Source: Bacillota bacterium (lineage in GTDB: Bacteria > Bacillota > Clostridia > Oscillospirales > Acutalibacteraceae). From it: a stretch of DNA of 64,000 nt. The position numbers were made by a program, and so were the translations under genes. The notes under the pieces were generated by a model. That model worked only from the letters and a program-made list of their open reading frames with translations, made no database searches and had not been told where the DNA came from. Shown piece after piece: positions 2,080 to 6,356 of the stretch (position 1 is the first letter of the stretch; each line of letters begins with the position of its first letter). The DNA lies in assembly GCA_022706685.1 (NCBI GenBank), contig JAKJCA010000010.1:1-64000 (forward strand), given 5' to 3'.

Positions 2080-5000
2080 CTAAGCGGTTTTTTTCAGCCG
2101 GCCCGCCAGCAGGAGCAGCAGGGCGCAGAAGGCTTGGAAAAGCAGCACCGTTATCACGCCGGGAATGCCCCGCGAAGGCATCAGCGCGAAAACGGTATAG
2201 GCGGTGAAACCGGCGGCCGCAAGGATGACCTGCAGCGCCTCGCCGAAGCGGATGACAAAATCCAGCCCGATACAGGAGCATACCGCGCGAAGCGTCGACA
2301 AGAGGCTGCCGCCATGGACGACGGTGGCCGGGGCCTGGTGCCTGACGCGGTTTTTATAACGCATAAAGATTCTGCCGGCTCCCGCGCTGAGAATTTTCAC
2401 GCTGCCGGTTTTCAGCGAGAAGAAGTCGGTAATGAGTTCCTCGGTGATGTTGGAATCCCAGGTGCGCACAAGCAGTTTAACGCCCTGCTTCTGCAATGTT
2501 TTGATATAGGGCGCGATGCGCGCGTCCGGCGCGTAACCGATGACAAACATCGCGGCGAGTTTGTTTTCGACGGCGAGGTAGACGACTTTCCTTCCGTCTC
2601 TGAGATAACGGTCCTCCTCGGCTTTGACGGGCACCTCGACGTTATGGTTGCTTAAAAGCTGCCGGTTGCCGAAAAGCACCGTCTGGTTATAGATAAGGCA
2701 CGTCAGTCCCAGCCGGTCTTCGTAATGCAGGTTTTTGACGGGCGGAAGAATATCTTTCGTCCCGCCGATGACTTTGGTGAATGCTTCCGCCAGGGGGCCG
2801 CCCGCTTTGATGACCACGGCGGCGGAATACAGGAGAATGTCGTCGATACGGACGTTTTTATAGTCCTTGACACCGAACATTTCACAGCGGTAGGGGTCGA
2901 AAAGGCCCGCGGAATCAATCACGACGGCATCGCAGCCGCTGTACTGCGCCGCCGCCCTGCGGCCGGCTATCATGACCTCGTCGGGGTTGAGCTTGCGGTT
3001 GGCGCGGACCACGGTGGACATCAGATAGGCGCCCGCGAATACGGGGGCGCCCGCGCACAGCGCGCCGCTGAAGACCGCGAAACCGTTCTGGACGCTTTTG
3101 GTCAAAATCCCGGCCGCCGCGCCCGCCGCCAGCGACGCAAACGCGATCAACGGCACAAAGACGCGGTTGATGCCGGCCGAAATGCCTTCGTTCGCCTTGG
3201 CGTGCTCGAAGAAACCGGCGGGAAAGTTCATCGCGCAGGCATACAGGATTTCCGGCTTGTCCATCAGAATGCTTTTGCCCGCCTCGAAACTGTCGTTGTC
3301 GTCGTCAATGTCCTGCAAGCCGTGCAGGGAGTCGGCAATATCGAAAGCACACAGCCTGAAATTGCCGGCGTTGGAAATCGCGGCGGCTCGCCGCGCATAG
3401 GCGGCGGCTATCAGCGCGAAAATCGCCGCGGCGCAATAGACCGCCGCGCCGCGCCCGGGGAACAGCGAAAAACCTGCAACCGTATGCAGGGCGCAAACGG
3501 CGACAGCCAGCGCGGGAAGAGCGTCTGTGTTCGGTTTCAGCCGCGCCAGTGACGCGAAGCCGGAGACCAGCGTCGGCGCGTTGAAGGCCGATGCCAGCAG
3601 CAGCAGCAGGAAGTTCAGCGCGAAATATCCCCTGCTCCCCTGCGTAAGCAAAGTGCTTTGGATGGAGAACCTCTCGAGCAGTTCCGGCAGGACAAACAGC
3701 AGCAGAGCCAGCAGTTCGATATACAGCAGCCCCGCCAGGCGGACGGTTGCTTTCTGCCGGGACGCGTTCAGCAGCGAGGCGATGCGGTTGCGCTGCTCGG
3801 GGAAACGGTATTCCAGGCGGCGTTTGCCGGCTTTGCGCTGCCGGTCCGCCTGTTCCGGTTCGCCGTCGGGCAAATCGAGAGGCAGCGGCGCGACCGCGTC
3901 GGGGGCCGCGTCGGGCACGCCGACAAGCGTGAATTTCTTCGCCTTTTCACGGCGTTTGGCGACAAGTTGTTTTTCAACAAGGTCTTCAGTAACGTTTTCG
4001 GAAGGCTGGCCCTGCTCGAACCCTTCGAGAACAATCTGGCCTTCGATATTTTCGGGATTCTCGTCAACGGCGGGAGGCGGCTGGGAACGTTCGGCGATTC
4101 TGGTCCTCTCGCGTTCGGCGGCGATGGTGTGCAGCATTTCTTCCGCGGGGATCACCTTCGGCATCGGCATCAGGTCCCCCGTCGCGGGCGGGCCCGCCTT
4201 TTTGACGATGACGCCCGGTTTTTCAATCGGCTCGCCGCTGTCTGCCGTTTCGCCGCCGAAGGTCCTCTCAATTTTGCCGGCGCCCATGAATCGGCGCCGG
4301 AGGTCGTCGGACTCCATGCCGCCGCTGAAATCGGACGTCAGGGAAATCCGCCGAACTTTTACCGGTTCCTGCCCGTCGTCCGGTGAAGGTTGTTCTGGAA
4401 CCGGGGGTTCAGGAGGCGGCGCGGGGGTTTCGTCTGAACCGCCGCCTTCCATATCCTCCTCACGCACCGCGGAAAAAGCCCGGATACGCGCGGTCAGGGT
4501 CATTTTGCGCAGTTTTTCCTCCGTGATGTCCGGGGCGGGATAGCCGGGCAGCGATACGGAGGGATATTTATCGAAAGGCGTGGCATCTTCTCTGCGCGTT
4601 TCGCCGGCCGGCGCCGCGCTGTCATCCTCCGGATCCGGCGTTGATATAACGAACAGCGGAGAAGCATCTTCCATTCCGGAGGAAGTTTCGGATTCGTCTT
4701 CCACCGCCGCGTAGCGGGGAGGCGAATACGCTTCTTGCTCAGGTTCCGCTGCCGCCGGCGCTTCACCGGCCGCAACAGCGCCGTCATCGTCCGGATGAAT
4801 CGCAGCCTGAGGCTGCGCCGGTTCGCCGACGGAGGGATCGTCCTCCACGGCAGGGGAAACTTCGGCCGGCTGATAGGGTTTGCCGAACGGTTCGGGTATT
4901 TCGAATTCGCGCAGCATGGCGTCTATCGCCTCGATGGTCAACTCGAAAGACGGCGGCCCGCCGGCCGGGACGGCTGCGTCGAAGCTTTGCGGCAAATCGT

Positions 5001-5424
5001 CCGGCGGCGGCACTGCGCCGGCCGGGAGAGGGCCGGATTGAGACCCGGATACGCTGTCGGGTGCCGCATCGCTTTGCAAAGGGGTATACGAATCAAAAGC
5101 GGAAACGAAAAAGCCGCTGTATTCGCCGGAAACCGGCGCGTCTGCCGGCGGCGGGGCGGAAGGCTCCTCTGCGGGAACGGCGTCAGCCGCCGGTCCGGCC
5201 GGCGCGGCGGTATAAGGGCCGAAAGAAGACGTAAAAGCGCCGCTGTATTCGTCAAGGTCCGCAACAGCATCGGGCTCTTCGGGCCGGGCGCCCGTTTTGG
5301 AGGTTTCGGCCAGCAAGCGGTCGATGTCCGCGATGGACCACTTTTTTTTGCCGTCAGGAGGCGAACCCGGACCGCCGGAGGCGGAGCTCCCGCTTCCCGG
5401 GGTACCGCCGGGGTCAGAAACCAT
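2080..5424 (-). CDS. large membrane protein resembling a degenerate P-type ATPase with long disordered N-terminus
   Basis: 1114 residues. Residues 1-540 are Pro/Ala/Glu/Asp-rich and almost certainly disordered. From about 560 the protein has about four hydrophobic helices (561-582, 600-622, 633-653, 660-680), a short soluble part, two more helices (756-800), a soluble region (810-1035) and two last helices (about 1045-1075 and 1085-1107). This is the layout of a P1B-type ATPase. The soluble region follows the P/N-domain order: VVIDSAGLFD (834-843) where DKTGTLT is expected, VLFGNRQLL (916-924) like the P1B N-domain GN motif, and LLVRTWDSN (984-992) in place of the TGD loop. The Lys/Thr of DKTGT, the TGE of the A-domain, the CPx ion motif and GDGxND are all missing. 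Ion pumping is therefore unlikely, and a scaffold or sensor role is inferred. It lies 18 bases after rlmB. ATG start with GGAGGG upstream. Confidence 0.75.
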   Translation of the reverse strand: MVSDPGGTPGSGSSASGGPGSPPDGKKKWSIADIDRLLAETSKTGARPEEPDAVADLDEYSGAFTSSFGPYTAAPAGPAADAVPAEEPSAPPPADAPVSGEYSGFFVSAFDSYTPLQSDAAPDSVSGSQSGPLPAGAVPPPDDLPQSFDAAVPAGGPPSFELTIEAIDAMLREFEIPEPFGKPYQPAEVSPAVEDDPSVGEPAQPQAAIHPDDDGAVAAGEAPAAAEPEQEAYSPPRYAAVEDESETSSGMEDASPLFVISTPDPEDDSAAPAGETRREDATPFDKYPSVSLPGYPAPDITEEKLRKMTLTARIRAFSAVREEDMEGGGSDETPAPPPEPPVPEQPSPDDGQEPVKVRRISLTSDFSGGMESDDLRRRFMGAGKIERTFGGETADSGEPIEKPGVIVKKAGPPATGDLMPMPKVIPAEEMLHTIAAERERTRIAERSQPPPAVDENPENIEGQIVLEGFEQGQPSENVTEDLVEKQLVAKRREKAKKFTLVGVPDAAPDAVAPLPLDLPDGEPEQADRQRKAGKRRLEYRFPEQRNRIASLLNASRQKATVRLAGLLYIELLALLLFVLPELLERFSIQSTLLTQGSRGYFALNFLLLLLASAFNAPTLVSGFASLARLKPNTDALPALAVAVCALHTVAGFSLFPGRGAAVYCAAAIFALIAAAYARRAAAISNAGNFRLCAFDIADSLHGLQDIDDDNDSFEAGKSILMDKPEILYACAMNFPAGFFEHAKANEGISAGINRVFVPLIAFASLAAGAAAGILTKSVQNGFAVFSGALCAGAPVFAGAYLMSTVVRANRKLNPDEVMIAGRRAAAQYSGCDAVVIDSAGLFDPYRCEMFGVKDYKNVRIDDILLYSAAVVIKAGGPLAEAFTKVIGGTKDILPPVKNLHYEDRLGLTCLIYNQTVLFGNRQLLSNHNVEVPVKAEEDRYLRDGRKVVYLAVENKLAAMFVIGYAPDARIAPYIKTLQKQGVKLLVRTWDSNITEELITDFFSLKTGSVKILSAGAGRIFMRYKNRVRHQAPATVVHGGSLLSTLRAVCSCIGLDFVIRFGEALQVILAAAGFTAYTVFALMPSRGIPGVITVLLFQAFCALLLLLAGRLKKTA

Positions 5425-5442
5425 AGCCGAAAATCCCTCCTT

Positions 5443-6180
5443 TCACAGCCGCTGCCTGGCGGCTTCGTATAGTATGATGCCCGCGGCAACAGAGGCGTTG
5501 AGCGAATCGATTCTGCCCTTCATCGGCAGCGAAACCAGAAAATCGCATTTTTCCCGGACAAGCCGGCCGAGGCCTTTGCCTTCCGACCCGATGACGAGCG
5601 CGCAAGGGCCCGTGAAGTCGTGTTCGAACCAGTTTCTGCCGCTTGTATCCGCGCCGAAAATCCAGACGCCGCGCTCCTTGAGCTCCCCGATGCAGGCGAC
5701 AAGATTCTTCACTTTGGCGACAGGCACATATTCGACCGCTCCCGCCGAGGCTTTGCCCGCGGCATAAGTCAGCGTGGCGGAACGCCTCTCAGGAATAATG
5801 ACGCCGTGCGCGCCGGCCGCATCCGCGCAGCGGATGACGGAACCGAGGTTGTGGGGGTCCTCGATTTCATCGCAGATGACCAGCAAGGGCGCCTCGCCTC
5901 TGCTCTCGGCAAGAGCGAATAAATCGTCGAGGCTCGCGTATTCACGGACGGCCGCCGCGGCGGCCACGCCCTGGTGGTTGCCGTGGCCGCACATGAAATC
6001 CAGTTTTTTGATATCGACATATTTGACGGTAACGCCGCTCTCGCGGCCTTTTGCGGCGAGAGCTTCCAGCAAACCGTTCCTGTTGCCTTTGGCAATATAC
6101 AGACAATCGACGGGCCTGCCGCTTTTGAGCGCTTCGGACACGGGATTCCTGCCGATGATGAGCTCTTGCGGGTTTTGCAT
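5443..6180 (-). CDS. rlmB: 23S rRNA (guanosine-2'-O)-methyltransferase, RlmB/TrmH (SPOUT) family
   Basis: 245 residues. The N-terminal substrate-binding part begins LIIGRNPVSEAL and the C-terminal part is the SPOUT knotted methyltransferase. Family motifs are clear: DPHNLG-type (EIEDPHNLGSVIR) near the middle, then VIGSEGKGLGRLV, and the final SLNASVAAGIILYE. These loops bind S-adenosylmethionine in the trefoil knot. The known role is 2'-O-methylation of G2251 (E. coli numbering) in the peptidyl-transferase region of 23S rRNA. The reading frame is open another 54 codons upstream, but the ATG at 6180 has GGAGG eight bases before it and gives the normal family length. An extended -10 promoter lies about 110 bases upstream, and the gene probably heads an operon with the large degenerate P-type-ATPase-like gene. 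Confidence 0.92.
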   Translation of the reverse strand: MQNPQELIIGRNPVSEALKSGRPVDCLYIAKGNRNGLLEALAAKGRESGVTVKYVDIKKLDFMCGHGNHQGVAAAAAVREYASLDDLFALAESRGEAPLLVICDEIEDPHNLGSVIRCADAAGAHGVIIPERRSATLTYAAGKASAGAVEYVPVAKVKNLVACIGELKERGVWIFGADTSGRNWFEHDFTGPCALVIGSEGKGLGRLVREKCDFLVSLPMKGRIDSLNASVAAGIILYEAARQRL

Positions 6181-6291
6181 GTGTCCGGCCTCCGTTTTTG
6201 GCTGGCTTTGTCCGCGGCGCGGCGGCGTTCTGCCGTCCGGCCGGGAACTCCTGTCTACCATATATAGACAAATATTAGCATATTTTACGCA

Positions 6292-6300
6292 ATTATACCA
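6292..6300 (-). promoter_or_regulatory. extended -10 promoter for rlmB
   Basis: On the minus strand TGG-TATAAT (the TATAAT is 6297-6292) forms a TGn-extended -10 element. No convincing -35 is seen 16-18 bases upstream. It lies about 110 bases before the rlmB ATG and just past the end of the convergently read acyltransferase gene's neighbour region. Confidence 0.5.
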
Positions 6301-6356
6301 CAATTTGGTGCATGCCTGCCATTTTTTTGGGCAGCCGGACAATCAATGCAAGGCGC

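Follow-up and report, generated by a model that had tools for sequence, protein, structure and literature searches.

Degenerate P1B-type ATPases encoded beside rlmB form a conserved family in Oscillospirales

The P-type ATPases, a textbook superfamily of enzymes, should become unable to transfer the phosphoryl group when the Lys of the DKTGT motif and GDGxND are lost. In the copper pump CopA, adenine is contacted by the Glu and His of SEHP and by the leading Gly of GxG. The protein described here is encoded in a 64,000-nucleotide stretch of DNA from an Acutalibacteraceae bacterium (hereafter the window). It resembles CopA (LpCopA, PDB 3rfu/4bbj) in its eight-helix topology, in the order of its P and N domains and in a remnant A-domain, and it shares with CopA the Pro of CPx, the T and D of TGD and the GN of the N-domain. 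Unlike CopA, it has no DKTGT, TGE, GDGxND (the segment is deleted), SEHP, CPC or HMA, and it carries a long disorder-like N-terminus where CopA has its metal-binding domain. The closest earlier case is a P4-ATPase-like domain that is also degenerate, in Plasmodium GC-beta (PMC6592433). As in the alveolate guanylate cyclases (TgATPaseP-GC, PfGC-alpha and PfGC-beta; PMC6592433), a P-type ATPase fold is joined to other parts; however, these cyclases are eukaryotic, of P4 type and cyclase-fused, whereas our protein is bacterial, of P1B type and stand-alone, with a disordered arm. The initial annotation had recognized no known family in it, and in the searched open-access literature we likewise found no report of a bacterial family that is widespread and stand-alone, keeps the whole pump fold and has lost the chemistry. 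No Pfam or NCBIfam model is dedicated to the family, which is thus invisible to annotation.

The gene is a single intact frame directly behind rlmB, and its parts are listed in Table 1. The identity of rlmB is genuine (TIGR00186, 236 bits versus a cut-off of 160). The ATG of the ATPase-like gene lies 18 nt after the rlmB stop codon, which is overlapped by the Shine-Dalgarno sequence AAAGGAGG.

Table 1. Features of the locus (window positions; residue numbers refer to the ATPase-like protein)
Feature	Residues	Position	Strand	Remarks
Pseudo-P1B ATPase gene	1-1114	2080..5424	-	Single intact frame, 1114 aa
rlmB, 23S rRNA G2251 2'-O-methyltransferase		5443..6342	-	Directly upstream of the pseudo-P1B ATPase gene; start codon uncertain
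N-terminal region, disorder-like	1-540	3805..5424	-	By composition; in relatives, about 60 to 1060 aa long
Short linear motif WSIADIDRLLAE	29-40	5305..5340	-	Type WS[LMIV]x[DE]IDxLL
Second, similar peptide FELTIEAIDAMLREF	160-174	4903..4947	-	Found by eye, in the window member
Helices MA-MB	546-628	3541..3789	-	Predicted structure
Helices M1-M2	634-696	3337..3525	-	Predicted structure
A-domain remnant	697-748	3181..3336	-	Without TGE
Helices M3-M4		2983..3180	-	CAGAP (790-794) at the CopA CPC site, Pro alone retained
P-domain, part 1		2869..2982	-	DSAGLFD (837-843) at the DKTGT site
N-domain	853-962	2539..2868	-	AGGP replaces SEHP; G906 and G919 near-invariant; most conserved domain of the family
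P-domain, part 2		2317..2538	-	Y964 replaces the VAD Asp; TWDSNIT (TxDPNIT in the family); segment of GDGxND deleted
Helices M5-M6	1041-1110	2095..2304	-	Predicted structure

Kinship with P-type ATPases was assessed by sequence and by predicted structure. No Pfam model matched residues 545-1114. The same residues gave weak but significant NCBIfam matches to CopA and P1B ATPases (CopA, 1.9e-11), and phmmer matched them to the sequence of the LpCopA structure at 1.3e-6; the curated family cut-offs were missed by far (TIGR01525, 30.6 versus 346; PRK10671, 42.9 versus 1316). From an alignment of 50 relatives, AlphaFold predicted for this core a complete P1B (Cu+) ATPase fold (pLDDT 93.8, pTM 0.90) with eight helices and A, P and N domains, the A-domain being merely a remnant. 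The best PDB neighbor of the model was LpCopA 3rfu (Z 23.7, 483 residues aligned), and Foldseek returned 4bbj (E 4e-18), Cu+ P1B ATPases being the closest structural neighbors. The whole-chain rmsd to LpCopA was 8.5 Angstrom, which reflects domain movement or divergence, and that of the N-domain alone was 2.3 Angstrom over 115 residues. The same fold was predicted for a distant member only about 18% identical to the window protein. The NCBIfam match to CopA, the phmmer match to LpCopA and the match over the whole predicted fold put the kinship beyond chance.

To describe the loss of catalytic motifs, 136 distinct family members were compared with 21 CopA controls. DKTGT and GDGxND were present in all 21 controls and in none of the members, and the columns of the GDGxND segment were gapped in 136/136; relatives with intact motifs, which according to the initial annotation would have pointed to a sequence error here, were thus not among them. 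SEHP (1/136 members) and the TGE of the A-domain (2/136 by pattern) were each found in 21/21 controls, and the window protein has neither. The three adenine-contacting residues of SEHP and GxG were gone in nearly all members, and an HMA CxxC was found in none of the 136. The Pro of CPx in M4 was retained in 123/136 without its flanking Cys. In the window protein, D837 aligns with the phosphorylated Asp, and the Lys and both Thr residues of DKTGT have been lost. Family-wide, this Asp was retained in 102/136, Lys was never among the residues listed at its site, and the Gly was changed to Asp or Glu in 124. With the aligned Asp surviving in these 102 members, some residual chemistry is conceivable on sequence grounds. 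The TGD Asp (D990) was kept in 132/136, followed by PNIT-like residues, and the VAD Asp was replaced by Tyr (Y964) in 131/136. Together with G919 (136/136) and G906 (135), D990 and Y964 are near-invariant. The places of the lost motifs are taken by a new family signature, DAx[DE]LFP, VxY and TxDPNIT; judged by this alignment, the substitutions are new family invariants and not random decay. The comparison shows a pseudo-pump without phosphorylation, dephosphorylation, metal-binding and ATP-contact residues, inactive by its sequence.

These results uphold the initial description of the locus as a degenerate P-type ATPase beside rlmB in its parts: (i) the gene is intact and lies behind a genuine rlmB, (ii) a full P1B fold is predicted for residues 545-1114, (iii) the motifs read as reported (DSAGLFD at 837-843, TWD at 988-990, and neither TGE, CPx nor GDGxND), and (iv) the stretch of about 540 residues ahead of the fold is disorder-like by composition, 79% of it being P/E/S/A/G/D/K/Q/T/R and 20% hydrophobic, with P, E, D, A and S abundant.

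We then determined the range of the family. With the window core as query, 57 of the 60 related genomes yielded relatives, true pumps included. In a class-level profile search, the 12 genomes of its own order scored 389-712 bits over the full length. The 279 other genomes of the class reached at most 147 bits, at model positions of about 203-480 only, and the proteins read among these were ordinary CopA; full-length members were absent from all of these approximately 279 genomes. A phylum sample gave nothing above 133 bits outside the order. Within the order, a family-level match (E below 1e-50) was obtained in about 275 of 295 genomes and in 220 of the 226 of good quality. Two small genomes of 1.0-1.3 Mb (G008 and G036) gave no family-level match. 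A profile scan of named genomes, biased by its use of a sub-alignment, found relatives in Caproiciproducens, Anaeromassilibacillus, Caproicibacter, Candidatus Avimonas and Ruminococcus sp. Caproiciproducens belongs to Acutalibacteraceae in the NCBI taxonomy, and GTDB assigns these relatives to Oscillospirales. The near-universality in a major gut order suggests an important role, testable in cultured species such as Caproiciproducens.

Among the six good-quality genomes of the order without a match, the gene is cut by a contig end in one (G348). The remaining five (G418, G380, G446, G405 and G585) also miss the rlmB orthologue, and G418 in addition the EF-G-like neighbor. This double absence may reflect joint loss or an assembly gap, which are indistinguishable, and we draw no conclusion from it about a functional link.

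Across 14 pairs of closely related members, dN/dS was 0.02-0.12 for the core and 0.08-0.29 for the N-terminal part, showing at the level of codons a gene family under strong purifying selection. By its defining features the family is not a P1B ATPase, although homologous to one; since catalytic residues are lost family-wide while the gene is under purifying selection, it is to be classed as a pseudoenzyme family. A pseudogene, a frameshift or an assembly error, as one relative split by a stop codon (L042 in G058) could suggest, can practically be dismissed, given intact frames order-wide, these dN/dS values and the many independent assemblies, isolates included. Recoding was also considered for three members of one genus with a reported in-frame TGA and was rejected, their frames being complete (834 aa).

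Within the family, mean column identity peaked in the N-domain (0.40), and the helices had the lowest values (0.20-0.25). The order was reversed in the CopA controls (N-domain 0.55, M5-M6 0.76), a comparison between groups that differ in divergence. By this measure, constraint is shifted from the transport path and membrane parts to the cytosolic head, chiefly the N-domain.

The initial annotation had left open whether the pairing with rlmB is conserved, and the survey shows that it is: in 49 of 53 genomes, rlmB immediately precedes the gene in the same orientation. The four exceptions are the split gene, which does adjoin rlmB, a locus at a contig end (L030), one in which the genes are 4.2 kb apart (L052) and one without rlmB in the stretch read (L071). 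In a larger set, which includes some loci from the same genome, rlmB adjoins 139 of the 145 loci that are not truncated by an end. No other neighbor was widely conserved in the 53 loci, an EF-G-like gene being next in about 10. In other orders, what comes after rlmB is a gene for an NYN-domain protein or a sigma factor, or else an ACT/DUF711 pair (names assigned by reading). We infer that the rlmB link has functional meaning beyond shared transcription.

In a small order of the same class (family f42), an intact CopA gene lies directly behind rlmB in 5 of 14 genomes (L334-L338, in G076, G110, G137, G164 and G186); in most of the others, an ACT and DUF711-like pair comes shortly after rlmB. These CopA proteins resemble the pseudo-pump in their position (gap -4 to +10) and differ from it in their intact catalytic motif and HMA and in their patchy occurrence. 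They form one clade in the tree. In AU tests, grouping of the pseudo-pump with the rlmB-linked CopA, with P1B-2 pumps and with other CopA were all accepted; the tree cannot place the family because its stem is too long. Descent from an rlmB-linked copA, a pair that is patchy in f42, is a tentative proposal to which we give somewhat less than even odds.

Conserved short peptides within a variable arm are typical recruitment sites. Two such patterns were detected near the N-terminus, which by these patterns occur in about half of the members. FSLDDILxE ([FY]S[LIV][DE][DE]ILxE) was found in 66/136, versus 2.1 in shuffles (maximum 6), and DIDxLL, the window protein's own type (WSxxDIDxLL), in 23/136 versus 0.15. 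Genome-wide matches to DDILxE outside the family were mostly SecA-like, RecF-like and other folded proteins, so DDILxE alone was rejected as a specific marker. A DDILxE-type peptide also occurs in two further membrane proteins that have disordered arms.

Which role could a strongly preserved pump without chemistry have? That the catalytic parts are lost, yet the pump shape is kept and strongly preserved, suggests an old pump repurposed as a membrane adaptor or sensor. We favor, at a probability of about 0.6, a non-catalytic membrane-anchored adaptor or sensor descended from a copper-pump-like P1B ATPase as an order-wide family. The protein would not pump; its helix bundle would serve as membrane anchor, its conserved N/P head would bind a ligand or a protein, and the disordered arm would recruit a cytosolic partner through one or two peptides (FSLDDILxE, WSxxDIDxLL). 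We infer this role from the conservation of the N/P head, above all the N-domain, and of the arm peptides, and the hedged suggestion of the initial annotation, a membrane scaffold or sensor, fits the evidence best. A stricter version, in which the N-domain still binds a nucleotide or metabolite and signals to the arm, could explain why this domain is best conserved, with G906, G919, Y949, Y964 and the DPN loop near-invariant, and why it superposes on that of CopA; we consider it unlikely, though worth keeping in view, as nearly all members have lost the residues that contact adenine in CopA. More speculative still, and rather improbable as a whole, is a scheme in which a single early event in Oscillospirales turned an ion pump into a membrane signaling adaptor, the old nucleotide domain sensing a ligand, the arm recruiting cytosolic machinery via a DDILxE-type peptide shared with other membrane proteins, and expression being coupled to ribosome maturation via rlmB.

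Active enzymes are often regulated by pseudoenzymes related to them, and an ordinary CopA is encoded elsewhere in the same genome; the dead protein might therefore pair with this CopA and control it. This is quite doubtful, however, because conservation is lowest in the helices and the gene sits with rlmB, not copA, across the order. A transporter still active by unusual chemistry is very improbable: the aligned Asp in 75% of members, the TxD Asp in 97% and all eight helices are kept, but the Lys of DKTG is never present, GDGxND is deleted in all, TGE and the metal site are gone and the helices are poorly conserved. The family is a natural experiment in a pump turning into something else.

A second dead ATPase, P1B-2-like and apparently independent, was observed elsewhere (L253, G356:C9, minus strand, 3538-5589). 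It reads NKTGT, has SEAGHDQ in place of GDGxND and keeps TGDN, HP and GxG. In the tree it groups with P1B-2 pumps on a long branch, and its nearest relatives elsewhere look like ordinary Zn/Cd pumps. With the pseudo-pump family it has in common the loss of the phosphorylated Asp and a peptide, here SYDLDDILREY, at the N-terminus ahead of an acidic arm; it differs in its P1B-2 grouping, in the motifs kept and in being a single case. A single-pass VanW/YoaR-like protein (L255, G372:C47, minus strand) starts with ISVDDILNEY, an N-terminal peptide of similar type, followed by a disordered arm. In four loci of the family (L047, L049, L050 and L053), the disordered arm contains a lineage-specific conserved peptide of the APHALTPDELL type. 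Downstream of the pseudo-pump gene, positions 268-1278 of the window (minus strand) encode a 336-aa Thr/Glu-rich protein of unassigned family, probably secreted, which is also present in two relatives of the genus.
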